64,000 bases of DNA, from positions 3,796,001-3,860,000 of the forward strand of contig NZ_LS483370.1 in the NCBI RefSeq assembly GCF_900475285.1. The letters are read 5' to 3'. The translations under genes were made by a program, and so were the position numbers. Below, piece after piece: positions 50,161-54,813 of this stretch. Source of the DNA: Pseudomonas taetrolens (lineage in GTDB: Bacteria > Pseudomonadota > Gammaproteobacteria > Pseudomonadales > Pseudomonadaceae). The notes beneath the pieces are model-generated. The model saw only the letters and a list, made by a program, of their open reading frames with translations, made no database searches and was not told the DNA's origin. The number at the start of each line of letters is the position of its first letter. The first letter of the stretch is position 1.

Positions 50161-50628
50161 ATGATCAATGCCCGTTTGCTGCAACGCATGATAGACGCGA
50201 CCCAGGACGGCATTGTGATCGCCGAACAGGAAGGCGAAGACAACATCCTTATTTATGTGAACGCTGCTTTTGAAGCACTCACCGGCTACAGTCGCGACGA
50301 CATTCTTTATCAGGACTGCCGCTTCCTGCAGTCAGGCGATCGTGATCAGCCGGCGCTGGCGCTCATCCGCAAAGCCATCGCCAGTAGACAACCGGTCCGC
50401 CAGGTACTGCGCAACTACCGCAAGGATGGTTCGCACTTCTGGAATGAGTTGTCGATCACCCCGGTATTCAACGAAAGCGATCAACTGACTTACTTTATTG
50501 GCGTGCAAAAGGATGTCACCCCCCAGGTAAAAGCCGAGATGCGGGTGGCCCAGTTAGAAGCCCAACTCAGCGCGGTACAGGCAGAGCTGGAAGCACTGAA
50601 GGCGACGAGCGGTTATAACAAAACGTAA
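50161..50628 (+). CDS. Short LOV-domain blue-light photoreceptor
   Basis: A 155-residue protein closely resembling P. putida PpSB1-LOV/PpSB2-LOV: a single LOV domain with N-cap (MINARLLQRMIDATQDGIVIAE) and a C-terminal coiled-coil helix (VKAEMRVAQLEAQLSAVQAELEAL) but no effector domain. The photoactive Cys53 lies in DCRFLQ, and the flavin-contacting Asn and Gln are in NELSITP and IGVQKDV (Gln116). Arg61 is present while position 66 is Leu. It should form a flavin-cysteinyl adduct in blue light and act through a protein partner. The start at 50161 follows CAGGAGCGACTATCG and matches the homologous N-terminus. Confidence 0.92.
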   Translation: MINARLLQRMIDATQDGIVIAEQEGEDNILIYVNAAFEALTGYSRDDILYQDCRFLQSGDRDQPALALIRKAIASRQPVRQVLRNYRKDGSHFWNELSITPVFNESDQLTYFIGVQKDVTPQVKAEMRVAQLEAQLSAVQAELEALKATSGYNKT

Positions 50629-50634
50629 AAATAG

Positions 50635-50665
50635 CGGTCTGTACCTACGACTACAGACCGACTTT
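50635..50665 (+). terminator. Hairpin between the LOV gene and the next gene
   Basis: CGGTCTGTA and TACAGACCG form a 9-bp stem with an 8-base loop, followed by ACTTTTCG. It is a weak terminator or attenuator, seven bases after the LOV stop codon. Confidence 0.55.
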
Positions 50666-50676
50666 TCGAGCCCCAT

Positions 50677-51297
50677 ATGTCTCACGATGCTCTTTTGACC
50701 CAGGAAGAGCTGGATTTCATCCAGTCGATGCACCAAAGCCCTCTGTCGAATACAGGGGAAGCATCGTCAAGCCTGGTGGTTAACGGGGTCTCTCAAATAC
50801 GCGACTTGCTGACTCGATTGGCAGCCCATGAGCACGTCACAATCCACGCTCATATTGCCAATCAGCAAATGAGTTTTCCGCTGCGTCTGGTCGAAGACGA
50901 ATTCCATGCCCAGCATCTGGAGTTAGGAGCGCCCAGCATCTTCGAAGACGGACCCAAGGCCCGGCCATGGCGCATGACGCTGCCAGAACCGGTACCGCTG
51001 GAAAACATTCGTGGTAAGCCCGGGCATTTATGGGTCACCGAAATGTCGTTCAAGGGGCTTCTGGTTGAAGTGCGTAACGAGGCTCGCCCGCCTCGCCAGT
51101 TTTCGCAGTGGTTCTGCCCCGGGGGCCAAGAGCGGATTGCCCTGCGTGGCACCCTGGAGCGCAAGACCGAACTGGGTCTGTACGCCTATCGCCTGAGCCA
51201 ACGGGACCACGACGAAACCGAACGATTGCGCCAGTTCATTCTGCACCGGCATCGCCTGGTACATCCCGACCTGCACGCCAGCGCCCTCACCCCTTGA
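50677..51297 (+). CDS. Conserved protein of unknown function, possible degenerate PilZ domain
   Basis: A 206-residue soluble protein. The N-terminus MSHDALLTQEELDFIQSMHQSP resembles the short docking motif that opens FliM-type proteins (LLTQEELDFI), but the rest does not match FliM. The segment WVTEMSFKGLLVEVRNE recalls the PilZ pattern [DN]xSxxG, with Glu for Asp, and no clear RxxxR precedes it, so c-di-GMP binding is doubtful. It sits between the LOV and MerR genes, reading with the LOV gene, and its 3' end overlaps the convergent MerR gene by 11 bases. Confidence 0.7.
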   Translation: MSHDALLTQEELDFIQSMHQSPLSNTGEASSSLVVNGVSQIRDLLTRLAAHEHVTIHAHIANQQMSFPLRLVEDEFHAQHLELGAPSIFEDGPKARPWRMTLPEPVPLENIRGKPGHLWVTEMSFKGLLVEVRNEARPPRQFSQWFCPGGQERIALRGTLERKTELGLYAYRLSQRDHDETERLRQFILHRHRLVHPDLHASALTP

Positions 51298-52222
51298 GAT
51301 CAGCGTCCAGACGTTGATTCATCAGCACGGCGTCACTGCCCAAACAGCCAATGGATGTGCCCGCCAACGCTTCCTGGGCAACATTGGCTGCCTCACCCGC
51401 CAGCAATAATGAACAGTTCAGGGTATTTGCCAGCCGCTGCAGCCGCCGAACATGCGCCGTGCTCAGCGCACGATTGGCAAACAGCACCACGGCCTGAGGT
51501 TTCAGCTTCTCGCAAATCAGTGAGAGCTCGCCCAATGGCTGCCCCACAGCCAAAACCCTGACCACTCGATCGGTTCGGGTCAGGAGCAAACCGGCGACCA
51601 GCAACTCCAGCTCATGACACAGCTCAGGCAGCGCTACCAACACTACACGTTGCCGGGCACCCGCGGCCTGCAACTGCAAGCGGTGCTGGACCCGCCCGCG
51701 CAAGAACCCGTCCAGGAGCAACCACTCGCTGGTGCGACCGAATTCGTCCTGTTCTCTGAGCAACTGCTGCCACAGCGGCAGAAATATGGCCTGGAATACG
51801 ATGTCGACCGGGTAGATCGAGAAAATCTGCCCATACAGACGTTCAAGTTCCGCCTCATCGAAAGCACTGAGAGCGGCTCGGATACTCAAATGCCATTCGC
51901 TGTATTCGTCAGTTTCGATCCCTGCCTCCAGGGTTCTGGATCGGGGCTCACGCGTTAACAAGTCACCCACTTTACTGACTGTGACCCCGCGCTCGATCCA
52001 GCCAAGCACACGACGGACTGTCTCGATATCCGTCATGGAATACAAACGATGCCCACTTTCGGTGCGTGTTGGCTGTATCAATCCATATCGCCGCTCCCAG
52101 GCACGCAATGTCACCGGATTGACACCTGTGAGGCGGGCTACTTCACGAATCGGATAAAGATCTCCCGGCGCAGATGAATCGGCGGTCAGCGCAACGGGTT
52201 CAATATCAATAATCATGGGCAT
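51287..52222 (-). CDS. MerR-family regulator of the LitR/CarH type, class II-like (PplR homologue)
   Basis: A 311-residue regulator. The N-terminal MerR HTH (~20-85) holds YPIREVARLTGVNPVTLRAWERRYGLIQPTRTESGHRLYSMTDIETVRRVLGWIERGVTVSKVG. The rest has the helical-bundle plus Rossmann-like layout of B12-dependent LitR/CarH. The Trp-x9-Glu-His motif of the cobalamin site is not intact (W...SEWLL), and no ExHxxG lower-ligand motif is clear. It is thus a class II LitR that likely does not use B12. P. putida PplR proteins of this kind act with short LOV sensors; here the LOV gene is 660 bases away. It is divergent from folM. The start at 52222 (MPMIIDIEP) is the best of several Met. Confidence 0.88.
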   Translation of the reverse strand: MPMIIDIEPVALTADSSAPGDLYPIREVARLTGVNPVTLRAWERRYGLIQPTRTESGHRLYSMTDIETVRRVLGWIERGVTVSKVGDLLTREPRSRTLEAGIETDEYSEWHLSIRAALSAFDEAELERLYGQIFSIYPVDIVFQAIFLPLWQQLLREQDEFGRTSEWLLLDGFLRGRVQHRLQLQAAGARQRVVLVALPELCHELELLVAGLLLTRTDRVVRVLAVGQPLGELSLICEKLKPQAVVLFANRALSTAHVRRLQRLANTLNCSLLLAGEAANVAQEALAGTSIGCLGSDAVLMNQRLDADLKG

Positions 52223-52270
52223 ATGAAAGCCATCGACCAAATGTAGGTAAACGCATTCTACGCATTATGT

Positions 52271-52296
52271 CGCTACACCGCCTTGAGATACATACA
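52271..52296. promoter_or_regulatory. TACA-type repeats in the merR/folM divergent promoter region
   Basis: TACA occurs at 52274, 52289 and 52293; read on the minus strand this is TGTATG, 13 bases, then TGTAGC. P. putida PplR1 sites have been described as TRTACA-N12-TGTAYA, so this is an imperfect candidate with one extra spacer base. Confidence 0.3.
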
Positions 52297-52424
52297 ACGC
52301 GCCTCCCTTCGTCAATCAGGTTACCCAGAGACGCTTTGGCCCAGGCATGGCCGTTGCGCAACAGACGCTGGTATAGTTTTGTCATTACGCCACTACCCCG
52401 CTGTTTCTTTAGACCGAGCCTGTC

Positions 52425-53135
52425 ATGCCTTCTACTTCTGCCCCGATCCTGATCACTGGCGCCGGACAGCGCATTGGCTTGCATTGCGCGCAGCAACTGC
52501 TGGCTGAAGGTTTTCGGGTAATCATCAGTTACCGCAGCGAGAAGCCGGGCGTGCAAGCCCTGCGTGATCTGGGTGCGACAACATTACTCGCCGACTTTTC
52601 GACCCCGGACGGTATCCTCGATTTTATCGAGCGGCTCAAAAGCCATACCGACTGCCTGAGAGCCATTGTTCACAATGCATCGGCGTGGCTGGCGGAATGT
52701 ACCGACACCGAAATCAATGCGTTCAGTCACATGTTCAACGTCCACATGCTGGCGCCCTACTTGATCAATCTTCACTGCAGCGAACTGCTGGAACGCTCAA
52801 CACCTGCCGATATCGTGCACATCAGCGACGATGTCACACGCAAGGGCAGCAGCAAGCACATTGCTTATTGCGCCACCAAAGCCGGACTCGACAGCCTGAC
52901 CTTGTCATTCGCAGCTAAACTGGCGCCACGCATCAAAGTCAACGGCATCGCCCCGGCGCTGGTGCTGTTCAATCCTGATGACGATGCAGCGTACCGCACC
53001 AAAGCGCTGGCAAAATCCGCACTGGGCATCGAGCCCGGAGCCGAGGTGATCTACCAAAGCCTGCGTTATTTGCTGGATAACCCCTATGTCACCGGCACGA
53101 CCCTGACCGTCAATGGCGGCCGGCACCTCAAATGA
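52425..53135 (+). CDS. folM: Dihydromonapterin reductase FolM
   Basis: A 236-residue SDR-family pteridine reductase. The NADPH-binding motif is ITGAGQRIG (residues ~10-18), then NASAW and the catalytic YCATKAG. The family-specific ILITGAGQRIGLHCAQQLL opening and the HISDDVTRKGSSKHIAYCATK block match FolM. It reduces dihydromonapterin to tetrahydromonapterin. It is first in folM-folE-folX-DUF1244-hopJ and divergent from the LitR-like gene. Confidence 0.92.
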   Translation: MPSTSAPILITGAGQRIGLHCAQQLLAEGFRVIISYRSEKPGVQALRDLGATTLLADFSTPDGILDFIERLKSHTDCLRAIVHNASAWLAECTDTEINAFSHMFNVHMLAPYLINLHCSELLERSTPADIVHISDDVTRKGSSKHIAYCATKAGLDSLTLSFAAKLAPRIKVNGIAPALVLFNPDDDAAYRTKALAKSALGIEPGAEVIYQSLRYLLDNPYVTGTTLTVNGGRHLK

Positions 53136-53159
53136 GCCGCCCCGCGAGGAAGTATTTTC

Positions 53160-53720
53160 ATGAGCGCATCACTGCCTGAGCACTATCGCGAGATCCTTGT
53201 GGGTCTCGGTGAAAACCCCGACCGCGAAGGCTTGCTCGACACCCCAAAGCGTGCGGCCAAAGCCATGCAGTATCTGTGTCGTGGCTATGAGCAAAGCGTG
53301 GAAGAGATTGTAAATGGCGCCCTGTTCTCATCAGACAACGATGAAATGGTGATCGTCGCCGATATCGAGCTGTACTCCCTGTGCGAACACCACCTGCTAC
53401 CGTTTATCGGCAAGGCGCACGTGGCGTATATCCCGACCGGCAAAGTGCTGGGCCTGTCTAAAATTGCCCGTCTGGTCGACATGTTCGCCCGACGCCTGCA
53501 AATCCAGGAAAACCTCACTCGGGAAATCGCCGACGCCATTCAGAACATCACCCAGGCGGCTGGCGTGGCGGTCGTCATTGAAGCCAAGCACATGTGCATG
53601 ATGATGCGCGGTGTAGAAAAACAGAATTCGACCATGAACACTTCGGTCATGCTGGGCGCATTTCGCGAGCCAAGCACCCGTATGGAATTCTTGCAATTGA
53701 TTGGACGGAGCAAGCCGTAA
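53160..53720 (+). CDS. folE: GTP cyclohydrolase I
   Basis: A 186-residue zinc enzyme making 7,8-dihydroneopterin triphosphate from GTP. Zinc ligands are Cys75 and His78 (LCEHHLLPF) and Cys146 ([12 protein letters not shown]); the conserved [30 protein letters not shown] follows. It is placed between folM and folX, so its product probably feeds monapterin as well as folate. Light induction of folE is known in P. putida, which makes its nearness to LOV and LitR genes notable. Confidence 0.96.
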
Positions 53721-54091
53721 TGTCACAACTTCAACCAGGAATGGCCCGCATTCGCGTCAAGGACCTGTGCCTGCGCACCTATATCGGGATCAATGAAGAA
53801 GAGATCCTCAACAAGCAGGATGTGTTGATCAACCTCACCATCCTTTATGCCGCCCAGGATGCCGTGCGCGATAACGATATTGATCACGCGCTGAATTACC
53901 GCACCATCACCAAGGCCGTGATCCAGCATGTCGAAGACAACCGTTTCGCTCTGCTCGAACGCATGACCCAGGAATTGCTGGATCTGGTGATGGCCAATAC
54001 TGCCGTGCTGTATGCCGAGGTCGAAGTCGACAAACCCCACGCCCTGCGCTTTGCTGAATCCGTATCGATTACGCTCGCGGCGAGCCGCTAA
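53720..54091 (+). CDS. folX: Dihydroneopterin triphosphate 2'-epimerase FolX
   Basis: A 123-residue FolB/FolX-fold protein. The segment [34 protein letters not shown] and the C-terminal [19 protein letters not shown] are typical; the N-terminal FolX pattern and linkage to folM favour FolX over dihydroneopterin aldolase. It epimerises dihydroneopterin triphosphate to the monapterin form. ATG shares its A with the folE TAA stop codon. Confidence 0.9.
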
Positions 54092-54121
54092 GCTGCCACT
54101 TTCTCAATCCCGGTGCCCCCT

Positions 54122-54418
54122 ATGACGCCCCAAGAACGCCTTGAACTCGAAGCTGCCGCCTTCCGCCGGCTTGTCGCACACCTGGACAGCCGCAAAGACG
54201 TGCAGAACATTGACCTGATGAACCTCTCGGGTTTCTGCCGCAATTGCCTGTCCAAGTGGTACAAGGCCGCGGCTGACGAGCGGCAGATCGACCTCAGCCT
54301 CGATGATGCCCGCGAAGTGGTTTACGGCATGCCGTACGCCGAATGGAAATCCCTCTACCAGAAAGAAGCCAGCGCCGAACAATCCGCGGCGTTTGTCTCA
54401 GGAAAAAAGCATGACTGA
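54122..54418 (+). CDS. DUF1244 family protein
   Basis: A 98-residue protein of the DUF1244 family, recognised by the central block NIDLMNLSGFCRNCLSKWYKAAADERQ with a CRNC pair, followed by DDAREVVYGMPYAEWKSLYQKEA. The function is unknown; the CxxC could bind metal. It lies 30 bases after folX, on the same strand, and overlaps hopJ by eight bases. Confidence 0.9.
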   Translation: MTPQERLELEAAAFRRLVAHLDSRKDVQNIDLMNLSGFCRNCLSKWYKAAADERQIDLSLDDAREVVYGMPYAEWKSLYQKEASAEQSAAFVSGKKHD

Positions 54419-54752
54419 TTTAAATACCCTGCGCGCCAGCCTTAACCGGGGCGAACATCTGTTTGCCGACACCCTGGCGTTTATTGCCGCGCATTACGAC
54501 TACCAGCCCCAGGCGTTCAACAATGGCGGCGTGGAAAATGCCGCCGGGCAAAATGAAGGCTCGTGCAAAACCCTCGGCCTGGCCCTGCTGGAAGGGTTTA
54601 GCGATCAGGAAGCACTGCTGGCCTTTGGCGAGCACTATCGCTCGGTACTGGCGACGCCGGAAGGCACCGATCACGGCAACATTCGTGCGCTGATGGCTCG
54701 CGGCCTGGCTGGCGTTGAATTCCCTGCCCGTCCGCTGGTACGCAAGGCCTGA
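54411..54752 (+). CDS. HopJ-family protein
   Basis: A 113-residue protein of the HopJ family, named after a Pseudomonas syringae effector candidate but widespread in non-pathogens. The diagnostic core is FNNGGVENAAGQNEGSCKTLGLALLEGFSDQEALLAFGEHYRSVLATPEGTDHGNIRALM. No secretion signal is evident. It is the last gene of the fol operon, ahead of a strong terminator. Its role is likely cytoplasmic and housekeeping rather than virulence, but this is unproven. Confidence 0.9.
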   Translation: MTDLNTLRASLNRGEHLFADTLAFIAAHYDYQPQAFNNGGVENAAGQNEGSCKTLGLALLEGFSDQEALLAFGEHYRSVLATPEGTDHGNIRALMARGLAGVEFPARPLVRKA

Positions 54753-54786: not shown

Positions 54787-54813
54787 AAAAAAACCGGCCG
54801 AGGCCGGTTTTTT
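54787..54813. terminator. Rho-independent terminator between convergent hopJ and trxB
   Basis: AAACCGGCC, loop GA, GGCCGGTTT with A and T runs on the two sides. It can serve both directions. Confidence 0.92.

Follow-up and report, generated by a model that had tools for sequence, protein, structure and literature searches.

The closest described counterpart of the locus analysed here is the PmSB-LOV/PmlR2 cluster of Pseudomonas mendocina NBRC 14162, which according to PMC9758184 comprises pmSB-LOV, PME15565, pmlR2, folM, folE and folX. PmlR2 bound the folM promoter in gel shifts, the folM site reads TGTACA-N12-GGTATA and lies 95 bp 5′ of the start codon, and PmSB-LOV is described as a light-dependent anti-repressor of PmlR2, with light inducing folM 2.4- to 2.5-fold and folE 1.6- to 3.3-fold (PMC9758184). 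The paper also reports that PmlR2 leaves a footprint on a promoter laid out as TTGACT-N16-TATGAT, a transcript read covering folM, folE and folX only, and light induction of folE in P. putida KT2440 too (PMC9758184). Short LOV genes adjoin the genes for PmlR2, PplR2 and PplR3 and not those for PmlR1 and PplR1. Our subject is the locus at 50161–54752 of a 64,000-nucleotide stretch of Pseudomonas taetrolens DNA (the window, by which we mean that whole stretch), which is this known Pseudomonas light switch in a further host: like the cluster of P. mendocina, it brings together a short LOV protein with Cys53, a hypothetical protein, a class II LitR with no full B12 module and folM-folE-folX. We estimate a probability of roughly 0.68 that the output of the switch in this host is photoprotection in trans, through the distant rudS-litR1-phrB operon, with direct light control of the neighbouring folM unlikely. 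The features concerned are the following, positions being those of the window unless stated.

50161–50628, + strand: short LOV blue-light photoreceptor of the PpSB/PmSB-LOV type, 155 residues, with Cys53 in DCRFLQ (PAS/LOV matches)
50677–51297, + strand: 206-residue protein whose C-terminal part is predicted to form a PilZ-like domain, in the position of P. mendocina PME15565 (structure model, orthologues)
51287–52216, − strand: MerR regulator of class II LitR type (PmlR2/PplR3-like) that lacks the B12-ligand stretches of CarH, 309 residues (MerR helix-turn-helix, CarH similarity)
52352–52375, + strand: LitR operator, eroded, spanning the −10 region of folM: distal half CGTTGC, 12-base spacer, retained proximal half GGTATA (alignment with relatives)
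52425–53135, + strand: folM, dihydromonapterin reductase (NF005066, 353.8 bits, cut-off 249)
53160–53720, + strand: folE, GTP cyclohydrolase I (the genome has a second folE) (curated equivalog cut-off passed)
53720–54091, + strand: folX, dihydroneopterin triphosphate 2′-epimerase (NF008418, 193.2 bits, cut-off 152)
54113–54418, + strand: DUF1244 protein (Pfam PF06844)
54411–54752, + strand: HopJ-family protein, a Pfam name only, found here in most sampled loci
54796–54809, + strand: weak terminator-like stem 3′ of hopJ, then a T-rich tail (3 such sites in the region versus 5.3 expected by shuffling)
3908876–3912270 of the genome contig (C1), 60 kb from the window locus: rudS-litR1-phrB, encoding a tRNA 4-thiouridine desulfidase, a second LitR and a DNA photolyase

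A second described system, the PpSB-LOV/PplR1–3 regulon of P. putida KT2440, was reportedly set out by Sumi in 2020. Our locus resembles it in the pairing of short LOV with class II LitR, in the operator consensus and in a photolyase gene as target, and differs in number: there are three LitR and two short LOV proteins in KT2440, whereas in this genome we found two LitR homologues (three further MerR matches are weak, E 3.4e-5 to 8.4e-4) and a single short LOV protein at E ≤ 1e-10. The original prediction had presented a link from blue light to pterin supply as a new physiological output; this part falls, because for P. mendocina the cluster, the mechanism, the binding of PmlR2 to the folM promoter and the light response of folM and folE are already in the literature, and its statement that folE is among the photoinducible genes of KT2440 is found in the same source (PMC9758184).

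The gene order that had been proposed, LOV, 206-residue protein, MerR regulator and folM-folE-folX-DUF1244-hopJ, was confirmed in frames and families: all eight genes are open at the positions above, and the genes for the short LOV protein and the class II LitR, a pair of the photoswitch kind, are contiguous with folM-folE-folX. PAS matches cover residues 6–120, approximately, of the LOV protein and no other family exceeds its cut-off, leaving a bare LOV domain; the NCBIfam YtvA family scores 156 bits, under its cut-off of 250, over positions 1–133 of 243 only, and the best PDB matches are chains named sensory box protein or similar. With a LOV core, the adduct cysteine at residue 53 and no effector domain, the protein fits, by its sequence, a short LOV photoreceptor. 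The MerR protein has a helix-turn-helix (HTH) of the MerR family and resembles CarH at 92 bits, under the cut-off of 400, with an HTH identical to that of the second LitR in 45 of 75 aligned columns. Like CarH/LitR of Thermus thermophilus, to which we take the structure entries used here to belong, it places a MerR HTH before a CarH-like region; unlike them it has lost the B12-ligand stretches, EEH and ERHEIG of CarH aligning with SEW and LCHELE (we presume the B12-binding residues of CarH to lie there), and in the published relatives it is the LOV partner that senses light. The claim of a LitR/CarH-type regulator without an intact B12 motif is thus upheld, and the HTH, the CarH-like region without B12-ligand residues and a litR gene adjoining the short LOV gene place the protein in predicted class II, a class taken from a published tree.

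For comparison we drew 100 loci from the genus, 80 located through the gene for the 206-residue protein and 20 through LOV, so that the free observations in them are confined to MerR, folM and the remaining genes. Twelve of these loci are LOV-less, chosen for LOV not being listed there. A second set holds 80 LOV loci of relatives with taxon names and partly overlaps the first (L214, L218 and L220, all of the P. fragi group, belong to both), and genus-wide gene and box counts cover 199 genomes, this genome being included in the count of tandem boxes. LOV, the 206-residue gene and MerR stand together in 81 of the 100 loci, so the gene order is not chance. LOV and MerR were concordant in 98 of the 100 loci (86 with the pair, 12 with neither): MerR was missing from all 12 loci sampled as LOV-less, never occurred without LOV, and was lacking beside LOV in two (L179 and L190), where the cluster genes after the 206-residue gene were not found. 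All 12 genomes with LOV-less loci retain LitR1 next to phrB, and in ten no second LitR was found; the other two carry LOV elsewhere, with a second LitR adjoining it and perfect tandem boxes of its own. In L197 and L198, perfect tandem boxes lie just beyond the LOV gene of a second LOV-LitR pair.

Among taxon-named relatives, in a listing possibly without the host itself, Pseudomonas sp. NKUCC02_KPG at 88% and P. fragi D12 at 86% come closest by LOV similarity, followed by P. bubulae, P. paraversuta, P. weihenstephanensis, P. helleri, P. psychrophila, P. saxonica and P. lundensis, which would place the host near P. fragi. We assigned the P. fragi group by LOV rank (L211, L213–L220, L222 and L228–L230), partly also on what we take to be its membership. 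Among the papers listed by literature searches, mostly the top of the hits, none is by title and start of abstract a study of the switch in P. fragi, and those listed on P. fragi and blue light concern food preservation, photosensitisers and other matters.

We scanned for the operator pattern T(G/A)TACA-N12-TGTA(C/T)A, the published consensus from two species. No box was present in the window at two mismatches or fewer or between litR and folM at three or fewer, and a scan of the window at up to three mismatches gave 26 matches, all at three mismatches, versus 24.4 expected by shuffling. The folM promoter of relatives has a conserved core, TGTACA-N10-CTGGTATA, whose proximal half lies within the −10 region; this genome reads CGTTGC-N10-CTGGTATA at 52352–52375, a homologous site with one half eroded, since CTGGTATA is kept and CGTTGC stands distally. 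In the alignment of near relatives CTGGTATAG is retained in 12 of 13 (L218 has CTGCTATAG) and the distal half is altered, and none of the 13 taxon-named P. fragi-group relatives with folM has a folM box at two mismatches or fewer. The site therefore departs from that of P. mendocina folM, TGTACA-N12-GGTATA (a light-induced gene there), in its distal half, CGTTGC. The gene order of a LitR-controlled folM operon is thus present and an operator before folM is not. With the distal half-site decayed, light probably exerts no direct control over folM-hopJ in this host, or only a weak one. The prediction that the whole fol operon, being contiguous with sensor and regulator, may be light-induced survives in its first part, the contiguity, and becomes doubtful for this host in its second, with the distal half of the operator lost and perfect boxes located at rudS.

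Across the 100 loci, a FolM orthologue (at least 60%) was found in 76, 71 with LOV and five without. A folM box at up to one mismatch within 300 bp occurs in 18 of the 71, one with two mismatches in eight and none in 45; among the five without LOV, four have a folM box and one has none. Of the 78 taxon-named loci with folM, 9 have a box, 6 have one with two mismatches and 63 have none. We used a midpoint-rooted tree, with eight short proteins joined and L179 and L190 on long branches, for two points only: loci with a box are scattered over it, and the clade to which the window belongs has none. The LOV- and LitR-less loci L145, L151, L152 and L160 retain good folM boxes, which LitR1 may use. 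In P. fragi D12 we did not find a folM operon in the 12.5 kb around LOV-LitR; the genes downstream (L212, 8000–12465) resemble ctlX, ornithine cyclodeaminase and amino-acid transporter genes, names assigned by reading open reading frames (ORFs) with no family search. Because D12 is without a folM operon nearby and four of the five LOV-less loci keep a box, contiguity of LOV-LitR with folM is no proof of control.

Over the whole genome, a single contig of 4.84 Mb, the pattern gave 240 matches at two mismatches or fewer (3 perfect, 13 with one mismatch) versus 199 for the reversed pattern, so that weak matches are mostly noise. Only three of the 16 boxes with no or one mismatch lie outside ORFs of at least 100 codons, and these are two perfect boxes before rudS and a one-mismatch box before the adjoining gene for a flavin adenine dinucleotide (FAD) oxidoreductase. 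The two perfect boxes are 50 bp apart (L036, 8795 and 8845), with TTGACT of the rudS promoter inside the first and TATGAT 16 bases later, between the boxes, the TTGACT-N16-TATGAT layout of the footprinted P. mendocina promoter P6650; the predicted operators overlap the promoter of rudS-litR1-phrB, as in a LitR-controlled operon. PMC11417400 describes the TudS-DUF1722 protein as RudS, a tRNA 4-thiouridine desulfidase in a light-responsive Pseudomonas photolyase operon, and RudS of this genome has both domains. At least one perfect box precedes rudS-litR1-phrB in all 12 relatives inspected (position relative to rudS was inspected for L036 and L199–L210), and 125 of the 199 genomes carry the tandem box, including this one and the four closest in the tree (G106, G116, G132 and G196), with zero reversed-pattern matches in every genome row.

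For binding, photochemistry and repression in the host species we infer the steps from P. mendocina and set them on the gene content, conservation and operators observed here. In the dark, LitR (51287–52216) would bind and repress promoters with T(G/A)TACA-N12-TGTA(C/T)A; blue light would produce a Cys53-flavin mononucleotide adduct in LOV, and the lit LOV would bind LitR and remove it from DNA. The surviving target would be rudS-litR1-phrB, perhaps together with the preceding FAD oxidoreductase gene, whereas the folM promoter holds only an operator remnant over its −10 box, its distal half-site decayed.

Several observations weigh against this reading. Literature searches turned up neither expression nor binding data on the host. 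An exact tandem at up to three mismatches is missing from 74 of the 199 genomes, by a pattern that boxes standing singly or spaced differently would escape. The presence of phrB boxes does not follow that of LOV: the 12 genomes sampled as LOV-less keep them beside LitR1. Boxes retained without LOV are no proof of action by the LOV-linked LitR at that operon, and this slightly lowered our confidence in the reading. The operator rules are a two-species consensus from which the P. mendocina folM site itself deviates, so a weak site could still function; control of folM is likely in other Pseudomonas, 18 of the 71 LOV loci with FolM keeping a good box. Four TGTA/TACA half-sites also lie at 52242–52296, with a spacing that differs from the consensus. 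We rejected a hidden operator with other spacing near merR, the four half-sites being by eye not common to the near relatives. Separately, L178, L181, L183 and L185 have closely spaced TGTACA-like repeats about 60–110 bp from the litR start, possibly for self-regulation.

That the adjacent LitR directly represses the whole folM-hopJ operon, which blue light would then induce as it does folM-folE-folX of P. mendocina, appears unlikely to us: the genes are contiguous, folM and folE are light-induced and PmlR2 binds the folM promoter in P. mendocina (PMC9758184), and the proximal half-site is retained with an extended −10, but the distal half-site is lost, no box at up to three mismatches stands before folM, and the P. 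mendocina transcript read covers folM, folE and folX only (PMC9758184). Still less probable is a folM response that is indirect, or runs through LitR1 or a diverged operator near 52242–52296. The boxes kept at four of the five LOV/LitR-less loci with FolM, in genomes (these four) where only one LitR was found, beside phrB, and the half-sites in the intergenic stretch fit such a route, although these half-sites lack an 18-base period and, by eye, are not shared by the near relatives.

It is very improbable that the LOV and LitR genes are relics with no working output. Compared with the other sampled genomes of the genus this one is small, has no match to PF04244 (CryB-type; the control matched in 3 of 14 taxon-named genomes) and lacks both the folM operator and the ABM-domain gene discussed below, but the LOV and LitR frames are intact, the photochemical cysteine is retained and perfect boxes precede rudS.

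The 206-residue protein between LOV and LitR has no Pfam match above cut-off, PilZ included. A structure model predicts a PilZ-like domain at residues 97–199, approximately, and most N-terminal residues have a predicted local distance difference test score (pLDDT) below 50; by this prediction the protein has a PilZ fold. The cyclic di-GMP (c-di-GMP) motif of PilZ proteins comprises RxxxR and [DN]xSxxG. Here it is replaced by RPWR and ExSxxG, some orthologues having D where this protein has E, so that, compared with the PilZ proteins YcgR and MrkH, it shows no Pfam PilZ match, RPWR, and E instead of D/N. It matched in 191 of the 199 genomes and in 19 of 20 LOV-less genomes among those listed (no LOV at E ≤ 1e-30); of the eight genomes that lack it, seven match LOV, G123 only at 4.6e-31, and it is missing from 5 of 88 LOV loci in the 100-locus sample and 10 of 80 in the taxon-named set, two sets that overlap. 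Its presence in 12 of 12 LOV-less loci is uninformative because those were located through it. The co-occurrence of LOV and LitR and the separate distribution of this gene indicate that LOV and LitR form the unit and that the 206-residue protein is, on these distributions, a widely kept neighbour and not part of the switch. Because it is found in LOV-less genomes and missing at some LOV loci, we set aside a light-specific role. A third, non-transcriptional arm of the photoswitch, leading from blue light to motility or c-di-GMP through this protein while the folM arm was discarded in the lineage, would be far-fetched.

Between litR and folM, 92 of the 100 genus loci have a gene of 189 codons with an ABM domain (PF03992; tblastn). 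A gene lies between merR and folM in 78 of the 80 taxon-named loci, one of them a 41% partial match, and the ABM gene is present in 13 of 13 taxon-named near relatives with folM. This genome lacks it, the litR-folM gap being 208 bp (52217–52424), and no second copy was found in a search that, empty and with no positive control, is weak. Eight other sampled loci also lack the gene, so its loss is not unique to this genome. The second folE of the genome lies at 3123493–3124023 of the contig (C1; L291), with no operator at up to three mismatches in the surrounding 3.5 kb (0.98 expected by chance). A sigma-70 promoter scan of the region gave no excess over shuffles (2 versus 2.0). A 9-pair hairpin at 50635–50660, between LOV and the PilZ-like gene, was rejected as a terminator, being absent from the 13 relatives folded. 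A FolM orthologue is missing from the stretch in 24 of the 100 loci, and 21 of those (L144, L147, L148, L156–L158, L161 and L163–L176) carry at the folM position a short-chain dehydrogenase/reductase about 40% like FolM, with neither folE nor folX matched nearby in the stretch and DUF1244-hopJ still downstream.

Taken over the genus, the regulator pair is widely kept while the operator at its neighbouring target comes and goes, and a light output of pterin synthesis is not transferable between Pseudomonas by gene neighbourhood alone. A conserved cluster protein without a name is now given a predicted fold, and for relatives of P. fragi a small photoprotection regulon is predicted.

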